Origin: an uncultured Pelagibacteraceae bacterium
Lineage (GTDB): Bacteria > Pseudomonadota > Alphaproteobacteria > Pelagibacterales > Pelagibacteraceae
NCBI GenBank assembly: GCA_902558815.1
Contig: CACEFF010000001.1
Span: 282,918 to 346,917, forward strand
Direction of reading: 5' to 3'
DNA length: 64,000 bases
The notes under the pieces are model-generated. The model was not told where the DNA came from. It saw nothing but the letters and a program-made list of their open reading frames with translations, and did not search any database. Positions 43,864-52,283 of this stretch are shown here, piece after piece. Position 1 is the stretch's first letter. Every line of letters starts with the position of its first letter. The position numbers and the translations under genes were made by a program.

Positions 43864-44433
43864 ATGAATAGCTTTGTTGAACAAAATGTATCTTTAGAAA
43901 AATGCCCTGCTTTGGTATTAAATGCAGATTACAGACCTTTAAGCTATTATCCATTGTCACTTTGGTCATGGCAAGATACAGTAAAGTCAGTTTTTTTGGA
44001 TAGAGTAACTATAGTAAGTAATTATGATAGAGTAGTAAGAAGCCCCTCATTTAATATGCAATTACCAAGCGTTATAGCACTGAAAGATTATATTGTGCCT
44101 CAGTCTAAACCTAGTTTTACTAGGTTTAATGTCTTTCTAAGAGATAAATTTTCTTGCCAATATTGTGGTAGCAATGAGGAATTAACATTTGATCATTTGT
44201 TACCTAGATCTAAAGGTGGAGAAACACATTGGGATAATGTTGTAACTGCATGTTCAGCTTGTAATGTAAAAAAAGGCGGGAAATTATTAAAATCTTCAGG
44301 AATGCAACTTAACCAACATCCTTACCAACCATCAACAGAAGATCTACATCGAAATGGTAAAAATTTTCCTCCAAATTATTTACATAAAAGCTGGATGGAT
44401 TATCTGTATTGGGATGTTGAGCTAGAAGCGTAA
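43864..44433 (+). CDS. HNH endonuclease family protein
   Basis: A 189-residue protein. An HNH domain at ~95-140 has the zinc pairs CQYC (98, 101) and CSAC (130, 133), the FDHLLPRSKGG strand with His111, and WDNVVTAC with Asn125. The N-terminal ~80 residues (LVLNADYRPLSYYPLSLWSW) are conserved in stand-alone chromosomal HNH proteins found widely in alphaproteobacteria and cyanobacteria. No restriction partner or mobile context is seen, so a housekeeping or repair role is more likely than a homing function. Confidence 0.87.
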   Translation: MNSFVEQNVSLEKCPALVLNADYRPLSYYPLSLWSWQDTVKSVFLDRVTIVSNYDRVVRSPSFNMQLPSVIALKDYIVPQSKPSFTRFNVFLRDKFSCQYCGSNEELTFDHLLPRSKGGETHWDNVVTACSACNVKKGGKLLKSSGMQLNQHPYQPSTEDLHRNGKNFPPNYLHKSWMDYLYWDVELEA

Positions 44434-44434
44434 C

Positions 44435-44965
44435 TTATACTTTTTCTGAAATATTTATTGCTATTTTAGAACCTGTTTTAATTATTTTATCGAGTATAGA
44501 GTAAAAGCCCTTTTTTGATGCCCCTTTCTCATAAGCAATATCTTTATGATGTAATTCATCTTCTCTAAATTTAGTGATCTTTTTTTTAAGTTCTTTTTCT
44601 TCAGATCCCAATTGATTAATTTGATTTAAATAATGTTTGTCTATTACTTCTTCTACTGAAGCAGTACATAGCATAGCTCCTTTTTTTCCTAAAAGAGTTG
44701 AACCAAAACCAAGTCCTACACCTAATAAGTCCCACAGAGGTAAAAATTTGGTTGGTTTGATATTTCTTTTTTTAATTTCTTTTTCAAAAAATTGACAATG
44801 TTCCATTTCATGAACCTTCATTTCCTCAATAGTCTTTTTTAAATCTTCATTTTTTACAAGAGTATTTAGTGCTAACAATTGACCTTCATAAATTTTTACT
44901 GCACCACGTTCACCAGCATGGTCAACTCTTATAAATTCTTCTACTTTGCTACTTGTTTTTTTCAT
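44435..44965 (-). CDS. coq7: Demethoxyubiquinone hydroxylase Coq7
   Basis: A 176-residue di-iron monooxygenase of the ferritin-like fold. Ligand segments are HAGERGAVKIYEG, MKVHEMEHCQFF (ExxH), TASVEEVID and REDELHHKD (ExxH). It hydroxylates demethoxyubiquinone. This Coq7 is used in place of UbiF. It overlaps dsbB by 17 bp at its start. Confidence 0.95.
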   Translation of the reverse strand: MKKTSSKVEEFIRVDHAGERGAVKIYEGQLLALNTLVKNEDLKKTIEEMKVHEMEHCQFFEKEIKKRNIKPTKFLPLWDLLGVGLGFGSTLLGKKGAMLCTASVEEVIDKHYLNQINQLGSEEKELKKKITKFREDELHHKDIAYEKGASKKGFYSILDKIIKTGSKIAINISEKV

Positions 44966-45434
44966 ATGAAATATAAATTTTTGTAAGTAATGTTATTAAT
45001 ATTAAACTTAATAATATATTAATACTTGTTAGAGATAATCCAAAAATTCTAAATGTCACATCTTTACAACTGATAGTTTTTTCCTGTAATTGTTTGAGCA
45101 ATTCTTCTTTTGAGATAATTCCAGTTGTATTTTTTAAACCACAAGCTGCAGACTCTTCAAATAAACCCTGTTCAATCCCCAAATGGTAAGCTGAAATAGC
45201 AAAAGAGAAGAAGAATGTGAGTATTAATAATAAAATTATAAACTTTTCATTTTTTTTGGAAAAATAACTTAAAGTTATTAGGATTATGCTTAATCCATAA
45301 GGAATTCTTTCTATTAGACATAAATTACAAGGCTGATACCCAAGAACGTATTCTATAAAATATGCAGAAATAATTGAAAATAAACTTATTATAAGAATTA
45401 ACTTTAGATAAAACTCAGTTTTTAAATTAGCCAT
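44949..45434 (-). CDS. dsbB: Disulfide bond formation protein DsbB
   Basis: A 161-residue inner-membrane protein with four helices. The first active pair is CNLC in GYQPCNLCLIERIPYG, the DsbB hallmark. The second periplasmic pair is the Cys in SAACGLKN and the Cys in TISCKD. It passes electrons from a DsbA to ubiquinone, which links it to coq7 next door. It overlaps the DedA-like gene by 8 bp. Confidence 0.93.
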   Translation of the reverse strand: MANLKTEFYLKLILIISLFSIISAYFIEYVLGYQPCNLCLIERIPYGLSIILITLSYFSKKNEKFIILLLILTFFFSFAISAYHLGIEQGLFEESAACGLKNTTGIISKEELLKQLQEKTISCKDVTFRIFGLSLTSINILLSLILITLLTKIYISYEKNK

Positions 45435-46032
45435 AAAATTTTGAAGTTAAATAAATTATGGATCCGATTATAACAATTAATATTCCAATAATTGTAAACC
45501 ACTTTGATCCATGTTTTTCCATGAATTGAGTAAATAGATTTCCAAATCTGTAAGACAAATAAGAAATAATAAAAAAACGCAACCCTCTAGATATTAAACT
45601 TATTATTATAAAAATTAAGATGTTAAATCCAATCAAACCACTAGCTATAGTAAAAACTTTATAAGGTAATGGAGTAAAACCAGCTAAAAAAAGTATACCT
45701 AGCCAAGCATAAAATCCCTCACTATTAATAAGATTATTTTTTAGGCTAATTAATTCATCCTCATATCCATAAAAAGTCATAACTTGCATTCCCATATCAA
45801 AAAAGAAGGCTCCAATGAAATATCCTAATATACCACCTAATACAGAGAATATTGTTGTTATAAGAAATATCTTAACAAAATCAGTTTTTTTTGAAATAAC
45901 CATAGGCACTACCATCACGTCTGGTGGAATAGGGAAAAATGAACTTTCAATAAAAGAAACAGCCGCTAAGTAGTATTTAGAACTTTTATGTGCTGCTAAA
46001 TCTAAACATTTTTTATAAAGATTATTAAACAT
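45427..46032 (-). CDS. DedA/VTT-domain membrane protein (YqaA-like)
   Basis: A 201-residue polytopic protein with the VTT (SNARE-associated) domain. FIESSFFPIPPDVMVVPMVI and GFTPLPYKVFTIASGL are the conserved re-entrant loops of the DedA superfamily, members of which act in lipid-carrier or phospholipid translocation. Its length and loop sequence resemble YqaA. It is first in the DedA-dsbB-coq7 run and divergent from tRNA-Leu. Confidence 0.87.
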   Translation of the reverse strand: MFNNLYKKCLDLAAHKSSKYYLAAVSFIESSFFPIPPDVMVVPMVISKKTDFVKIFLITTIFSVLGGILGYFIGAFFFDMGMQVMTFYGYEDELISLKNNLINSEGFYAWLGILFLAGFTPLPYKVFTIASGLIGFNILIFIIISLISRGLRFFIISYLSYRFGNLFTQFMEKHGSKWFTIIGILIVIIGSIIYLTSKFYG

Positions 46033-46091
46033 TTTTTGGTTTTAATATAATTTTAGTTCTTATACTATTTAATAAATAATTAAACAATCGA

Positions 46092-46176
46092 GGGCGAATG
46101 GCGGAACTGGTAGACGCGCACGACTCAAAATCGTGTTTCGCAAGAAGTGAGAGTTCGATTCTCTCTTCGCCCACCA
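46092..46176 (+). tRNA. tRNA-Leu (CAA)
   Basis: An 85-nt class II tRNA. Acceptor arm GGGCGAA (46092-46098) pairs with TTCGCCC (46166-46172), then A and an encoded CCA. The anticodon stem CACGA/TCGTG encloses the loop CTCAAAA with anticodon CAA (46126-46128), reading UUG. A short variable arm precedes the T arm GAGAGTTCGATTCTCTC. The next gene starts 4 bp later. Confidence 0.96.
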
Positions 46177-46180
46177 TTAT

Positions 46181-47923
46181 ATGGAATTAAAAGAAATAAA
46201 TAGTTTAGTTGAGCTTTTTTTTAAGAAATATGATGAAAAATTTTCAAAAGATATACAAAAAATTAATGAAGAGATCTTTTTAGTATCATTAAAAAATAAA
46301 GATTTAGCTGATACACATTCAGGACCCTTCACTTATTCATGGGGAAACATTAATACAAAAATAAAAATATTATCAAACTATTTAGAAAAAATTATCTCTA
46401 GAGGTGATAGATGTATTTTATTATCAGAAAATCGACCTGAATGGTTAATTTCTGACATAGCGATAATGAATGCGGGTGGAGTAACTGTACCACTTTTTAC
46501 AACTTATTCCAAAAATGATTATGAATACATTATAAAAGATTGTGAACCCAGAGCATGTATTGTTTCAAATATCGAAGAATTTAAAAAAATTAAAAATTAC
46601 ATTAGCAAAAATACAATTATTATTTCAATCGATGACTTTGATAAAAAAGTAGAATGTTTTGAAAATATTTTTTTTCAAGCAGAAAAAGATCTTAAAACGC
46701 TTGCGGAAAGTGTAAAACCCTACAATAATAATTTAAGAAGAAATGATTTAGCCTGCATAATTTATACATCAGGAACTACAGGAAACCCAAAAGGAGTAAT
46801 GTTGAGCCATGGAGGAATTTTATCAAATTGCGAAGGGGCACAAGAAATTTTAAAATCATTAACTAAAAAAGATCCTCCAGTCTTTTTAACTTGGCTTCCA
46901 CTATCTCATTCATATGAGCACACCGTTCAATATGTTCAAATTTTGCTTGGAGCAAAAATTTATTATGCTGAGAGCTTAGAAAAACTTTTACCTAATATGT
47001 CGATTGCCAAACCTACAATAATGACTGCAGTGCCAAGATTTTATCAAAATTTATATAGTAAAATTTCTCTAAATTTTTCTAAACAAAAAGGTATTAAAAA
47101 AAGATTAATTAAAAATACAATTTTGCTTGGAATAAAAATATTGAATAAAGAAAGATTAAATTTTAAAGAAAAAATTATCAATTTTTTATGTGAATTATTA
47201 GTAAGAAAAAAAATAAAAGATCAATTTGGAGGCAAATTAAAGGCCTTTGTTTCTGGAGGAGGAGCTTTAGATCAAAAAGTAGGTGAGTTTTTAAATTCTA
47301 TTGGTCTCCCAACTCTTCAAGGATATGGGCTAACTGAAACCTCTCCAGTAGTCAGTTGCAATATACCTGAAAAAATTAAGATTGAAACAGTAGGTCCACC
47401 TTTTAAAACCAACGAAGTAAAAATTGCTGATGATGGTGAAATTTTAGTTAAGGGAGAAAATGTAATGCTTGGTTATTGGAACAAAAATAAAGAGACTGAC
47501 GAAGTTATTAAGGATGGTTGGTTACATACAGGTGATATAGGTGAAATAACTAAAGAAGGAAATTTAAAAATTACAGATAGAAAAAAAGAAATAATAGTAA
47601 ATCTTGGTGGAGATAACATTTCACCTTCTAAACTTGAAAATCTATTATGTTTAAATGAAAAAATTAAACAAAGTTTTATTTATGGAGATAAAAAAACATA
47701 TTTAGTTGCATTAATTGTAAGTGAAAGTGAAGAAAATGAAAAAGAAATTCGTTTATATGTTGAAAACTTGAATAATAATTTATCATTAGTAGAAAGAATT
47801 AAAAAATTTAGATTGATTAAAGAAGAATTTACAATTGAAAATGGAATGTTAACACCAACATTAAAACTAAAAAGAAAAAAAATTTTAGAAAAACATAAAG
47901 AAGATTTAGAAAAACTTTATTAA
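46181..47923 (+). CDS. Long-chain acyl-CoA synthetase (AMP-forming)
   Basis: A 580-residue ANL-superfamily ligase. The ATP-binding P-loop is YTSGTTGNPKGVMLSHGG (from ~194), the adenylate motif is GYGLTETSPVVS, and the hinge reads GWLHTGDIGEI, followed by DRKKEIIVNLGGDNISP. It activates fatty acids for lipid synthesis or degradation. It is close to FadD/FAA-type enzymes that lack a C-terminal extension. The final Lys (LKLKRKKILE) fits the usual catalytic position. It begins right after tRNA-Leu. Confidence 0.92.
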   Translation: MELKEINSLVELFFKKYDEKFSKDIQKINEEIFLVSLKNKDLADTHSGPFTYSWGNINTKIKILSNYLEKIISRGDRCILLSENRPEWLISDIAIMNAGGVTVPLFTTYSKNDYEYIIKDCEPRACIVSNIEEFKKIKNYISKNTIIISIDDFDKKVECFENIFFQAEKDLKTLAESVKPYNNNLRRNDLACIIYTSGTTGNPKGVMLSHGGILSNCEGAQEILKSLTKKDPPVFLTWLPLSHSYEHTVQYVQILLGAKIYYAESLEKLLPNMSIAKPTIMTAVPRFYQNLYSKISLNFSKQKGIKKRLIKNTILLGIKILNKERLNFKEKIINFLCELLVRKKIKDQFGGKLKAFVSGGGALDQKVGEFLNSIGLPTLQGYGLTETSPVVSCNIPEKIKIETVGPPFKTNEVKIADDGEILVKGENVMLGYWNKNKETDEVIKDGWLHTGDIGEITKEGNLKITDRKKEIIVNLGGDNISPSKLENLLCLNEKIKQSFIYGDKKTYLVALIVSESEENEKEIRLYVENLNNNLSLVERIKKFRLIKEEFTIENGMLTPTLKLKRKKILEKHKEDLEKLY

Positions 47924-48040
47924 TTTAGTAAAATACTTGGTTATAAAGCGCATAAACATTAACTTTTTATACATTAAAATTATAAAATATTTATTTTATT
48001 AAAAAATTTAATTTTGAAAGTTTTAACTTTAATTAAATAA

Positions 48041-48097
48041 TTGACATAACGTATATAAAAAAATAAAAATAACATATCAGCGAATCATTTTGATTCG
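48041..48097 (+). promoter_or_regulatory. Promoter and hairpin leader of the polybasic peptide gene
   Basis: A perfect -35 TTGACA lies at 48041-48046; the matching -10 is weak (TAAAAA at 48064-48069, 17-bp spacer). Downstream, CGAATCA (48081-48087) and TGATTCG (48091-48097) make a perfect 7-bp hairpin with loop TTT in the leader. A strong ribosome site, GGGAG at 48111-48115, precedes the ATG at 48122. The hairpin could be an mRNA stabiliser or an operator. Confidence 0.5.
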
Positions 48098-48121
48098 TTT
48101 AACTAAAAAAGGGAGCTAAAG

Positions 48122-48199
48122 ATGCCTAAGAGAAGAAAAAAAGCAAAGAAGGCTAAGAAAAAAGCTAAGAAAAAAGCTAAAAAAAGAAGAAGAAGATAA
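48122..48199 (+). CDS. 25-residue polybasic peptide
   Basis: ATG at 48122 to TAA at 48199. After Met-Pro, all 23 remaining residues are Lys, Arg or Ala: PKRRKKAKKAKK, then Lys/Ala repeats with Ala mostly every fourth residue, and a closing RRRR. It has a TTGACA promoter element, a hairpin leader, a strong GGGAG ribosome site and an intrinsic terminator, so it looks like an independent and well-expressed gene. The composition suggests nucleic-acid binding. Candidates are a ribosome-embedded micro-protein (eukaryotic eL41 is also 25 basic residues) or a nucleoid peptide. I do not recognise a named family. Confidence 0.7.
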   Translation: MPKRRKKAKKAKKKAKKKAKKRRRR

Positions 48200-48218
48200 T
48201 AACTTAGTATTCTTTATT

Positions 48219-48264
48219 AAAAACGCTTCTCATAACGATTTACGTGTGAGAGGCGTTTTTTTTT
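48219..48264. terminator. Bidirectional intrinsic terminator
   Basis: ACGCTTCTCA (48223-48232) pairs with TGAGAGGCGT (48247-48256), a 10-bp stem with one G-U pair, extended by A/T pairs outward and by a short inner helix. It is followed by a run of T to 48264 on the plus strand and preceded by an A run, so it can work for both the polybasic gene and convergent carD, whose stop codon begins in the T run. Confidence 0.85.
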
Positions 48265-49105
48265 ATTCTTCTAAAGGTTCTTCTGAAACTGCTTCATCAA
48301 CAGATTCTTCTGGACTTGTAGTTTTTGAAGTTTGTACCTCAGCTTTTGGCTGGGTAACAATGTTTCTTTTTAAAGCTTTATCTAATTTTTTTTGCGTATC
48401 TTCAGTAGAGGTGCTGAGTATTATCTGAAATTCAGACAAAATTCTTTCATAAGCTTTTTCAAAAAGTTGTCTTTCACTATAAGATTGATCTACCATTATG
48501 TCGTCTCCTTTATTTAGGTCTCTCACAACTTCTGCTAGCTCATAAATTTTTCCAGAGGAAATTTTGGCTTCATACTCTTGTGCTCTTCTGCTCCACATAG
48601 ACCTTTTAATTTTTGGTTTACTTTTAAGAATAGAAATACATTTATTAACTTGATTAATAGTAGCTAGTGATCGAAGATGAGATTGTTTATTTACTGGCAC
48701 CATTCCATTAGCTTTATCTTTCTCAAACTTAATGATATAGGTTTCGATATCAATTCCACCAATATTTATTTTTTTAAATTCAGTAATTTGTCCAACCCCA
48801 TGTTTTGGATATACAACATAATCTTTAATTTTAAATTCTCTTTTTTCTGTATCTTGTTTTTTTACCTTTTTTATTTCTGGCTTAACCTCGTTACCTTTTG
48901 AAATTCTTAAATTATCTGTTTTACTTTCAGCAACTTTCTTTTCGGATATTTTAGAGGATTTTTTAGAGGCAGATTTTTTATTAACTGATTTGATTATCTT
49001 TTTTATTTTTTTTGATTTTGTAACTTTTTTTTTTGTTACTTTTTTTTTAGTTTTTTTCTTATTAAATGTTTTCTTTAAAATATTTTTCAAACTTATTTTG
49101 CTCAT
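48263..49105 (-). CDS. carD: CarD-family RNA polymerase-binding regulator with Lys-rich extension
   Basis: A 280-residue protein when started at ATG 49103-49105 ([14 protein letters not shown]). A longer frame reaches 49147 but overlaps the ferredoxin gene more. Residues ~5-90 are extremely lysine-rich and low in complexity. The CarD/CdnL domain then begins near [18 protein letters not shown], with the RNAP-binding Tudor-like part and the DNA-contact helical part containing [17 protein letters not shown]. The tail is acidic. Alphaproteobacterial CarD proteins are usually ~170 residues, so the extension is the unusual part. It overlaps the ferredoxin stop by 44 bp. Confidence 0.88.
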
Positions 49106-49388
49106 TTTTATATTTATCATGATCCGAAGGTGGATCTTTTTTCTCACTTATGTTAGGCCAGATTTCAGAATACTGTTTGTTGATTTCTAACCATTTTTCG
49201 CTACCAGGTTCAGTATCAGCTTTAATCGCATCAACCGGACATTCTGGCTCACAAACGCCACAATCTATACACTCATCCGGTTTAATTACAAGCATATTTT
49301 TTCCCTCATAAAAACAATCTACCGGACATACTTCTACACAATCCATTAATTTACATTTAATACATTTGTCATTAACTATGTATGTCAT
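49062..49388 (-). CDS. fdxA: Seven-iron ferredoxin FdxA
   Basis: A 108-residue ferredoxin. Cluster-binding cysteines are Cys9, 12, 17 and 21 and Cys40, 43, 46 and 50 ([13 protein letters not shown]), fitting one [3Fe-4S] and one [4Fe-4S] centre. A charged C-terminal extension contains [15 protein letters not shown]. The helicase-ferredoxin-carD order is conserved in alphaproteobacteria. It overlaps the TerB-like gene by 4 bp. Confidence 0.95.
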
Positions 49389-49801
49389 ATTGAATTCTCT
49401 TTTTTAATTTTTTCTTTAATATCTCCCATTGTTTTATTATCAATATACAATAATCCAGAAAGTCTTCTCATCAAATTTGTCTCATACATGTCGGCTTTTT
49501 TGTTTGAATAGATTATTCGCCAAAGGGTTTCTATAATCTTAATCTTATTTTGTTCATCAATATTTTTTACTTCTTTTGTAAAATCTAGTATTTGATTTGC
49601 ATTTTCCTCTATTTCTTTCCCTTTTTTAATTATATCTTGAATGTCTTTATTATCGGGATCTATTTTTTGGAGAGCTTCTTTAATAATTTCCTCCTCTTGT
49701 TTTGAGTAATTTTCATCTATTTTAGCTGCATATATCAACAGTGCTGCTATTTTAGCTAAATCACTTTTCTTTCCATCAACTTTATTTTTTTTAAAAAACA
49801 T
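49385..49801 (-). CDS. TerB-like protein
   Basis: A 138-residue all-alpha protein of the TerB/DUF533 superfamily (tellurite-resistance TerB). The conserved segments are [22 protein letters not shown] and [27 protein letters not shown], which carry the acidic metal-binding positions. In other alphaproteobacteria an S4-domain RNA-binding gene often occupies this place between helicase and ferredoxin. The function is unknown. Confidence 0.75.
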
Positions 49802-49805
49802 CGAA

Positions 49806-52283
49806 TTAATTAAAGTTTAAATTTTTTAATACATCAAAAGGATTTTCTTTTGTAACAATTTTATTAGATTTTTTTTGAACTTTTTTGGGAGCATATTTGA
49901 AAAATATCTGATCCTCTTTTTCTATAATTTTATAATTCATACTTTTAAGAAGTTTCTTGAAATTATCTTTACTACATCCTAATAAATTCACCATTTCTGG
50001 AACCAATTTAATTTCTTTTTGTTTTTCAGAACTGGAATTTATTATTTGCATGAATAATCTTTCCAAAATATCAATTCTAACGTAAAATTTTTCAAATTTT
50101 TCAAAGCCGCAAAGTAACATAAAATTTTTATTTTGAATTTTAGTATCATCTAAAAAGTTAAGTCCAAATGTTGGTGGCTTTAGATTAAAAAATTTTTGAT
50201 GATAATTCTTCCAAAGCAATGTTCGTAATGAAACAGGTTCAGGTTTAATTAGTCTATATAAAAAGACGTGATATCTTCCAAACTTTACTCCAAGATCTCT
50301 TAAGATTTTTCTCTCATTTTGTCCTAGTTCTTTGACATATTCTGAAACTTGATCTCTCTTAAGAACACCATTGTTTTCATACAACTGATAAGCAAGCGCT
50401 TTAATTGATGAGTTTTTTTCTTTCAAATTTTTTAAATCAATTAAACTTTTGAGAATATCTTCAATCTTATTTTTTAACCATTTTTCTAAAAAGTTAGTTA
50501 ATCTCTTCCTTTGATCTGTTTCTAGGATGTCATCAACTATAAGCTCAATATTCGGATTTAAATAATCTTTACCAGATAATAATCTTCCTATTGGTGACTT
50601 ATTCCAATAAATCTTAAAATCATCATTCAAATCTATTAAACCAGTTTCTATAATTATTTGGATTCTTTTTTCAAGTTCAGGCCCCACGGTTTGTCTTGCA
50701 GCTTTTTTTAAGGATTTTATGTCAGTTTCTAGTGCTCCTTTTTTTAGGTCTAGCTCTAATTTCAAACCATTAATTTTACCTATAAACTGATTATCAATTA
50801 TGACATCATTATTTTCTAAAATTTTTGTATCAAATTCCATATTTTGTTTTAAACCTCTTGCAAGAATACTTGCTCGTTTATCAATGAAAGTCTTTGTAAG
50901 TTCTTCATGAAGTCTATCTGAGAGCTGGTCCTCTAAAAATTTTGTTTTTTCTATCCAATAGTCTTGATTTTCTATCCAATTATTTTTATTTGAAACATAA
51001 GACCAAGTTCTCACATTTGCAATTCTATTTGATAAAGAATCAACATTTCCATCCAATTTATTAAGTTTTAATAGTTGTAAATGCATATAATCATCAGTTA
51101 TTTTACCCTTTTCACTATTAAGATATTTAAAAACACTAGCAATCACCTCATAATGGTTACCATAAGTTTTTTTAACAAAATCTGGTATTTGACAACATTC
51201 CCACAATAAACTTAATTTTTCCTTGTTAAATTCAATATTTTCAAAATTTTTATCTTTTAAGAAAAACTTAAGAGCTTTTTCATCTTCACATTCATGTATT
51301 TTCCTTAACCAATTTTTATTAGGTTTTTCATCCAATGATTTAATGAGTGCAGTTGGATTATTAAAGTTTAAGTTCGAATTTCTCCAAAATAAGTATCGAA
51401 TTTCCTCAAATTTGTGATTTTCTAATAAGTCAACTTCTTCAGCATTTATTTCCTTACACTCACCTGTTATACCAAAACTACCATCATTTAAATACCTTCC
51501 TGCCCTTCCTGCAATTTGTCCAATCTCGGATAAATTCAATTTTCTTAATTTTTTTCCATCAAATTTTTTTAAATTAGAAAAATAAACATGATCAAGATCC
51601 ATGTTTATACCCATGCCTATTGCATCCGTTGCAACTAAAAAATCAACATCACCAGATTGATATAATTCTACTTGAGCATTACGTGTTTTTGGACTTAGAG
51701 ACCCCATTACAATGGCAGCCCCTCCTTTTTGTCTTCTGATCAATTCAGCAATTGCATAAACTTCTTCAGCTGAAAATGCTATTATTGCTGTCTTCCTATT
51801 TATTCTTGAAATTTTTTTATGACCAGCATAAGAAAGTTTTGATAATCTATTTCTGTCTATAAATTCTATATCACCATCAAGTTTTGAGATTATTTTCTTA
51901 ATTGAATTAGAACCCATCAACATAGTTAGTTTATTGCCTCTTATATTAAGTAATCGGTCTGTAAAGATATGTCCACGCTCGTGGTCAGAACACATTTGTA
52001 TTTCATCAACTCCAACAAAATCGAGTTCTTTATCGATGGGCATAGATTCCACAGTACATAAATAATATTTTGCATTAAGAGGAATAATTTTTTCTTCACC
52101 AGTAATTAAAGCTACTTTGTTTAATTCAGTTTTTTTAATTATTTTATCATATACTTCTCGAGCTAATAATCTTAGAGGAAAACCAATCATACCACTATCA
52201 AATGACAACATAGTTTCGATAGCTAAATGAGTTTTACCAGTATTAGTTGGACCAAGAACAGCTGTAATTTTTTTTTTATTCAT
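49806..52283 (-). CDS. SUV3-like ATP-dependent RNA helicase
   Basis: An 825-residue superfamily 2 helicase. Motif I is GPTNTGKTHLAIET (11-24), motif II VDEIQM and motif VI QIAGRAGR. The sequence resembles mitochondrial SUV3 and its alphaproteobacterial homologues, helped by GFPLRLLAREVYDK. SUV3 works with PNPase in mitochondria; pnp is at 21-23 kb here. The C-terminal half (from ~300) has no motif I can name; its last ~80 residues hold an S4-like stretch (MVNLLGCSKDNFKKLLKSM). Confidence 0.88.
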   Translation of the reverse strand: MNKKKITAVLGPTNTGKTHLAIETMLSFDSGMIGFPLRLLAREVYDKIIKKTELNKVALITGEEKIIPLNAKYYLCTVESMPIDKELDFVGVDEIQMCSDHERGHIFTDRLLNIRGNKLTMLMGSNSIKKIISKLDGDIEFIDRNRLSKLSYAGHKKISRINRKTAIIAFSAEEVYAIAELIRRQKGGAAIVMGSLSPKTRNAQVELYQSGDVDFLVATDAIGMGINMDLDHVYFSNLKKFDGKKLRKLNLSEIGQIAGRAGRYLNDGSFGITGECKEINAEEVDLLENHKFEEIRYLFWRNSNLNFNNPTALIKSLDEKPNKNWLRKIHECEDEKALKFFLKDKNFENIEFNKEKLSLLWECCQIPDFVKKTYGNHYEVIASVFKYLNSEKGKITDDYMHLQLLKLNKLDGNVDSLSNRIANVRTWSYVSNKNNWIENQDYWIEKTKFLEDQLSDRLHEELTKTFIDKRASILARGLKQNMEFDTKILENNDVIIDNQFIGKINGLKLELDLKKGALETDIKSLKKAARQTVGPELEKRIQIIIETGLIDLNDDFKIYWNKSPIGRLLSGKDYLNPNIELIVDDILETDQRKRLTNFLEKWLKNKIEDILKSLIDLKNLKEKNSSIKALAYQLYENNGVLKRDQVSEYVKELGQNERKILRDLGVKFGRYHVFLYRLIKPEPVSLRTLLWKNYHQKFFNLKPPTFGLNFLDDTKIQNKNFMLLCGFEKFEKFYVRIDILERLFMQIINSSSEKQKEIKLVPEMVNLLGCSKDNFKKLLKSMNYKIIEKEDQIFFKYAPKKVQKKSNKIVTKENPFDVLKNLNFN

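Follow-up and report, generated by a model that had tools for sequence, protein, structure and literature searches.

Here we describe a micropeptide gene that is convergent with carD in the window, the stretch of 64,000 nucleotides analysed here, together with the rhtB RNA (RF01814) as its candidate antisense regulator. The peptide is likely a shrunken histone-H1-tail-like binder, the translation of which is likely blocked by pairing of the rhtB RNA loop with the ribosome-binding site. Sequence comparison shows directly that the gene exists and is conserved, that its match to the RNA loop is exact, and that the two partners have changed together. The initial annotation missed the antisense match to the rhtB RNA, which is located on another contig. 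The features of the locus are listed in Table 1.

Table 1. Features of the micropeptide locus (positions are those of the window)
Feature	Position	Strand	Description
Predicted promoter	48041-48070	+	TTGACA at 48041-48046; A/T-rich -10-like stretch at 48064-48070
5' leader hairpin	48079-48099	+	AGCGAATCA-TTT-TGATTCGTT; predicted fold
Ribosome-binding site to start codon	48111-48124	+	GGGAGCTAAAGATG, with GGGAG beginning at 48111; predicted pairing site for the loop of the rhtB sRNA
Micropeptide gene	48122-48199	+	25 aa, MPKRRKKAKKAKKKAKKKAKKRRRR; from open reading frame list and translation
Intrinsic terminator	48219-48260	+	stem AACGCTTCTCATAAC.../...GTGTGAGAGGCGTT, then a U-run; separates the micropeptide gene from the convergent carD
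carD	48263-49147	-	convergent neighbour and synteny anchor; PF02559, PF21095

Comparison of related genomes identifies the reading frame as a real, stand-alone gene, as initially proposed. The micropeptide is in frame at 37 of the 40 same-genus carD loci read, which comprised 30 loci from one set of 37 genomes and 10 from another of 16. The other three loci (L019, L028 and L108) stop at contig edges before the micropeptide site, so that the frame is kept in every locus that reaches it, and all 37 frames follow GGGAGCTAAA[GA]ATG. The loss of the frame in relatives, which would have spoken against the initial proposal, is thus not seen. The 95 same-genus mRNA sites read encode 38 different peptides of 21-35 residues, with a composition of 54% K, 20% R and 18% A. 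Among codons with a single difference, 17154 of 28078 comparisons were synonymous (61%, against 20% expected under uniform mutation); these comparisons are pairwise and hence not independent. Within the window, the micropeptide is the sole case with K+R of at least 50% among 528 open reading frames of 20-60 residues, which, together with the conservation, argues against a chance reading frame.

The predicted transcript region runs from the TTGACA element through the leader hairpin, AGGGAGCTAAAGATG and the terminator to the convergent carD. The TTGACA element, the GGGAG ribosome site and the terminator named in the initial annotation are all present and conserved across same-genus loci: of the 90 loci whose upstream sequence spans 85 nt or more, 89 carry TTGACAT at a distance of 38-41 nt from the hairpin, and the terminator stem recurs across aligned loci, with altered stem letters in some. 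The leader hairpin, represented in 92 of the 95 loci, had been called perfect, which is nearly right: a 7-bp core (CGAATCA/TGATTCG) and one A-U pair are perfect, and one further pair is G.U. In a simple promoter scan of positions 44000-52000, 44 promoter-like sites were detected compared with 46.0 in shuffled sequence, that is, no excess, and the micropeptide terminator was absent from the list produced by the same scan; the support for the promoter, hairpin and terminator thus comes from conservation, not from single-sequence scanning. The 206-nt micropeptide stretch has a predicted folding energy of -43.2 kcal/mol (z = -3.89; none of 200 shuffles folded equally well), and the target site is mostly unpaired in the predicted fold of its own mRNA.

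GANTC, the CcrM methylation site, is present in each arm of the leader hairpin and is nearly invariant within the genus. We considered the palindrome as a methylation or operator site, but in genus g5 of the same family the hairpin keeps its form with other letters, which favours an RNA structure. A role of the micropeptide as a leader peptide or attenuator of carD was ruled out because the micropeptide gene and carD are oriented towards each other and are separated by a terminator.

The neighbour is indeed a carD gene, as noted initially: its product has a lysine-rich N-terminus and matches PF02559 and PF21095 in Pfam, with no match in an NCBIfam search. The carD locus served to find relatives of the micropeptide outside the genus. 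The micropeptide is present in all 8 genomes of genus g5 examined, where it follows a different ribosome site, (GGG or GAG)AGGAACGGAGATG. Family f2 belongs to the same order; of its 20 carD loci fetched, two are cut off by contig edges and 18 hold a convergent H1-tail-like protein of 40-91 residues. The f2 proteins are encoded 35-41 bp from carD and consist of KAAPKKK repeats (for example, MEELKVIFAKARKKAKKKAAPKKKRKAAKRKPAKKKAAPKKKK...), with a composition of 49% K, 25% A, 10% R and 7% P. A hairpin beginning with ACGAATCA occurs upstream of the homologous genes in both g5 and f2, the f2 leader hairpin likewise starting with GAATCA. In the f2 loci L032-L050, the leader CCTCTAACTAAACCCAAANGGGGGGAGATAATTATG is strikingly conserved, and its CCC and GGG could pair; GGGGGGAGATAATT is an f2 stretch that was considered as a possible antisense target.

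The likeness to histone-H1 tails suggested in the initial annotation is thus borne out by the syntenic f2 proteins, and both these and the genus peptides have the K/A-rich tail composition typical of histone-H1-like proteins. It seems that the micropeptide is a reduced version of such an H1-tail-like protein, a view based on synteny, leader and composition, as alignment of such simple sequences proves little. As a polycation of the H1-tail kind, it would be expected to bind nucleic acid, and binding of RNA or DNA is its likely, candidate function. Neither the micropeptide nor its g5 form nor either of two f2 homologs matched any Pfam family up to E = 1, and in a protein search with an 85-residue f2 homolog only two metagenomic fragments passed. 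DUF1127 includes small RNA-binding proteins of the CcaF1 type; the micropeptide has no match to this Pfam family. The proposed resemblance to the ribosomal micro-proteins eL41 and bTHX found no support either, with no Pfam or NCBIfam match to such models, which are weak on simple sequences of 25 residues.

The candidate partner of the micropeptide mRNA was found through a second genomic copy of GGGAGCTAAAGATGGCTAA, which corresponds to the RF01814 loop read on its opposite strand. In the genome to which the window belongs (G000; 1,105,900 bases in 25 contigs), this second site is located at G000:C3:3411 (locus L057), and the RF01814 element occupies positions 1548-1466 (-) of L057 with 81.1 bits. 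Covariance-model scores in L053, L055 and L057 are 80.3-83.8 bits, compared with a gathering score of 55. In the rhtB RNA, an outer stem of 9 bp (GATAGTCCT/AGGACTATC) is followed by an internal loop and by an inner stem (AGCC/GGUU) that closes a 13-nt apical loop, AUCUUUAGCUCCC; according to the Rfam alignment and the fold, this loop is the exact antisense of GGGAGCUAAAGAU. In the window's genome, the pairing resumes at 48126-48130 beyond a single mismatch at 48125. The sRNA and the micropeptide mRNA are encoded on different contigs of this genome, and the sequences flanking the two loci are dissimilar.

To describe the distribution of the pair, we used 150 same-genus genomes at least 75% complete, with individual sites read from a chosen part of these. 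The 14-mer GGGAGCTAAAGATG is present in two copies in 93 genomes, as a single copy in 41, and absent from 16; a reversed-pattern control gave no genome out of 150. In nearly all other genomes read, the second site is, again, the complement of the RF01814 loop. Two matches nearly always represent one of each partner, the sole exception seen being G551, where the mRNA site occurs twice. Among the 41 single-site genomes, many of which are incomplete, 25 show the sRNA, the pattern used for this count matching the sRNA only, and others show the mRNA. The sRNA may be truly missing from G552 (97% complete), G009 (92%) and G544 (91%), given that these genomes are near-complete and carry the mRNA, with no RF01814 hit over the cut-off. 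Among 18 further same-genus genomes, RF01814 exceeded the cut-off in one, G476. A class-wide pattern scan of 385 genomes, only five of which represent the family, gave two sites each in three genomes; all three belong to the window's genus, with no site elsewhere. Viral contigs yielded at least 129 matches; among those listed, none has an rhtB stem or a peptide rich in K and R, which points to chance matches, and phage-borne copies were rejected.

Functional pairing is also supported by coupled changes in the two partners. Among the 16 genomes without the 14-mer, RF01814 scored over the cut-off in nine and not in seven. All nine sRNA loops read AUUUUUAGCUCCC, a C to U change, and all nine matching mRNAs, located independently via carD, read GGGAGCTAAAAATG, the corresponding G to A change, which affects the spacer and leaves the Shine-Dalgarno core untouched. 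When the same 150 genomes were scanned for GGGAGCTAAAHATG, these nine were found to carry two copies each, and four genomes carried a single site. None of the four represents an mRNA/sRNA pair: in the window's genome the site marks the start of a gene resembling speD-speE, in G545 it belongs to a protein gene, and in G036 and G501 it lies in coding sequence. Across the 70 genomes where both sites were read, 60 pairs are G/G, nine are A/A, one is a G.U wobble (G476, where the sRNA reads AGCUCUC), and in none is the 14-nt core disrupted. Because the exact 14-mer was used to gather the G/G pairs, their perfect pairing was to some extent built in by the selection; no such bias applies to the A-type pairs, and both the A/A set and G476 came to light by other routes.

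The nine A-type genomes do not form a single clade (AU test, p = 6e-5) in the carD tree, a tree of one gene (40 CarD domains, 170 columns), where the A-type falls in two places, with G522 inside a G-type clade at 100/100 support. This gives two independent contrasts on well-supported branches, both in the same direction and too few for a significant sign test. The complementarity to an mRNA encoded at another locus is thus kept by coupled changes, as in trans-acting antisense RNAs.

The complementarity extends beyond the core in most cases. Among 65 pairs, the contiguous match spans 14 nt in 29, 17 nt in three, 18 nt in 25, 19 nt in four and 20 nt in four; in the 29 cases with 14 nt, codon 2 is CCT and the one mismatch is located on the inner stem of the sRNA. 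The duplex of the loop alone has a predicted energy of -20.7 kcal/mol, and the full duplex a mean of -41.4 kcal/mol (69 genomes), compared with -36.1 and -38.3 kcal/mol when the G and A types are swapped. Duplexes with 1000 shuffled sRNAs averaged -21.4 kcal/mol (sd 4.0), the best reaching -38.4 compared with -40.3 for the window's genome.

These results bear on the view that the two sites are sequences of the anti-Shine-Dalgarno type, or of shared ancestry, with no functional pairing. The CUCCC loops do resemble the 16S 3' end, and the ribosome site of genus g5 is well conserved with no antisense partner found: no sRNA was detected in the g5 genomes (8 genomes) or in SCGC AAA288-N07 (L156), which all carry the micropeptide, and a search of the eight g5 genomes for a second antisense partner with GGGAGGAACGGAGATG at up to two mismatches returned the peptide site and two coding-sequence sites only. 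Conservation of a ribosome site by itself therefore proves nothing. However, complementarity of 14-20 nt that covers the spacer and the start codon, a coupled spacer change outside the Shine-Dalgarno core in two clades, and the unlike flanks of the two loci make the absence of functional pairing very unlikely.

The genomic setting of the sRNA raises the question of its strand and of a role in cis. In L057 (1567-2148) and relatives, genes for a TIGR03643 protein and glutaredoxin 3 are divergent from the rhtB RNA; the TIGR03643 gene is present in 24 of the 24 loci read and is more constant than rhtB. The opposite strand might thus be the one transcribed, as the 5' leader of a TIGR03643-glutaredoxin operon, and serve as a decoy ribosome site for a shared RNA-binding regulator; its loop is identical to the ribosome site, including the start codon. 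Yet the outer stems of 92 sRNAs are free of mismatches, with 815 Watson-Crick pairs and 13 that are G.U when read on the antisense strand, and no position would form a G.U pair on the other strand. This indicates selection on the antisense strand, as in Rfam. In the genomes for which both strands were listed, RF01814 reaches 66-77 bits on the antisense strand but 23-34 on the decoy strand. We therefore consider a decoy to be extremely unlikely. A -10-like match was found upstream of the sRNA in 86 of 92 cases, a count obtained in A/T-rich sequence with no shuffle control.

Alternatively, the hairpin could act mainly in cis, as a 5' leader or attenuator of a LysE/RhtB-type exporter gene, with the micropeptide mRNA as a trans-acting RNA or sponge. 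A start codon follows the hairpin within 18-25 nt in 20 of the 24 loci, and in 19 of these it belongs to an rhtB/LysE-like gene, 19-25 nt away, the product of which (MLPL...) is weakly similar to homoserine/threonine exporters, below the NCBIfam cut-offs. A clear U-run ends only 32 of the 92 hairpins, as would fit a leader, and the micropeptide mRNA, strongly promoted and terminated judging by its predicted elements, could serve as a sponge. Against this stand the unchanged loop in the four loci with no rhtB-type gene closely downstream and in the one with another gene, which indicate that the sRNA is not tied to rhtB, as well as the constancy of the divergent TIGR03643 gene and the identity of the paired bases with the micropeptide ribosome site, a classic position for a translation block. 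A predominantly cis-acting element thus appears unlikely, with a cis role on rhtB being possible where the two are adjacent.

In the preferred reading, the candidate sRNA and the micropeptide mRNA would meet in the cell, the 13-nt rhtB loop would pair with the entire ribosome-binding site and start codon, and the 30S subunit would be shut out of the mRNA, turning translation off. A translational block is the simplest interpretation because the pairing spans the Shine-Dalgarno sequence to the AUG and the site folds mostly open. The pairing would need no Hfq. A search of 59 same-genus genomes, of which 44 are at least 90% complete, gave no match to Hfq (PF17209), while the same profile matched five of 14 control genomes, including E. 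coli and Caulobacter; the pair thus appears to fall outside the Hfq-dependent sRNAs. A long, perfect match presented in a loop is what we would expect of antisense pairs that lack a matchmaker.

A bolder extension is that in these streamlined bacteria, which appear to lack Hfq, the micropeptide is itself an RNA annealer for sRNA/mRNA pairs, including its own silencer, keeping the polycation level constant. A 25-residue, cut-down histone tail would then speed up the annealing that silences its own mRNA. We assign this extension a low probability.

Two of the single GGGAGCTAAAHATG sites deserve description. In the window's genome, L287 (1501-2555; G000:C8:20327) encodes a SpeD-SpeE-like fusion of AdoMet decarboxylase and spermidine synthase domains, the ribosome site of which, GGGAGCTAAAAATGG, is complementary to the rhtB loop over 10 bp plus 4 bp. 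From this complementarity, the SpeD-SpeE-like mRNA is a possible second target of the rhtB RNA, again concerned with a polycation; none of the other 149 genomes has a SpeD-SpeE-like gene with the exact 14-mer. In G545, L389 (201-424; G545:C2) encodes a hydrophobic protein of 71 residues with no Pfam match, preceded by a hairpin and then ACAAAAAGGGAGCTAAATATG, in a similar leader style.

As an RNA, the rhtB element is a candidate, known as a computed family (Rfam; Meyer 2009). It has been described from 'Candidatus Pelagibacter ubique' as one of four rhtB-type candidate motifs in a 2009 survey of Pelagibacter, in the form of a single bulged hairpin with a conserved loop and bulge, about 1250 representatives and a poly-U after about half of these, and with a possible role as a terminator or regulatory element (PMC2704228). 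In the accessible text of that article, 'trans-acting' and 'carD' do not occur, and 'antisense' occurs once, about something else. The accessible portions of PMC2864753 and PMC5069720 contain nothing bearing on the micropeptide/rhtB RNA pair, and no literature was found that links Pelagibacter with lysine-rich small proteins or histone H1-like proteins. As far as literature searches show, the target of the rhtB RNA and its trans-covariation with this target are new.

A conserved orphan RNA thereby gains a concrete candidate target, and a genus-wide gene emerges from an annotation gap; standard tryptic proteomics would destroy its product. If the proposed regulation is true, a one-to-one antisense switch would control a histone-tail-like polycation in what are very likely SAR11 bacteria, judging by the initial annotation and by the description of the rhtB family from 'Candidatus Pelagibacter ubique'. 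Classical regulators are few in these bacteria, and no Hfq was detected in the genomes searched here. Such a switch would bear on nucleoid organisation and on regulation in small genomes without the usual machinery.

Bacterial histone-H1-like proteins of the Hc1/Hc2 and AlgP type have tails of lysine, alanine and proline repeats. The proteins described here share such repeats, most clearly in the f2 homologs, but have no Pfam match, and the form found in the window's genus, at 21-35 residues, is tail only. The RNA partner belongs to the rhtB family, scoring over its gathering threshold; unlike the account of the family available from PMC2704228, we propose an mRNA target and trans-covariation. 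In B. subtilis, according to the portion of PMC8464778 available, the sRNA FsrA acts with the small basic proteins FbpA, FbpB and FbpC (29-54 residues), which are postulated RNA chaperones. In both cases an sRNA is tied to a very small basic protein; whereas the Fbp proteins are separate helpers, here the mRNA of the basic peptide itself is the predicted target, and we do not claim homology. In the parts available, the closest parallels for the pairing are S. aureus IsrR (PMC9410917) and B. subtilis FsrA, in which a C-rich loop likewise faces the Shine-Dalgarno sequence and AUG, in a similar setting of a low-GC genome where G-runs are rare outside ribosome sites. In contrast to IsrR and FsrA, which address many mRNAs through short, imperfect pairing, the rhtB RNA would direct one loop to one site, over its full length and genus-wide.
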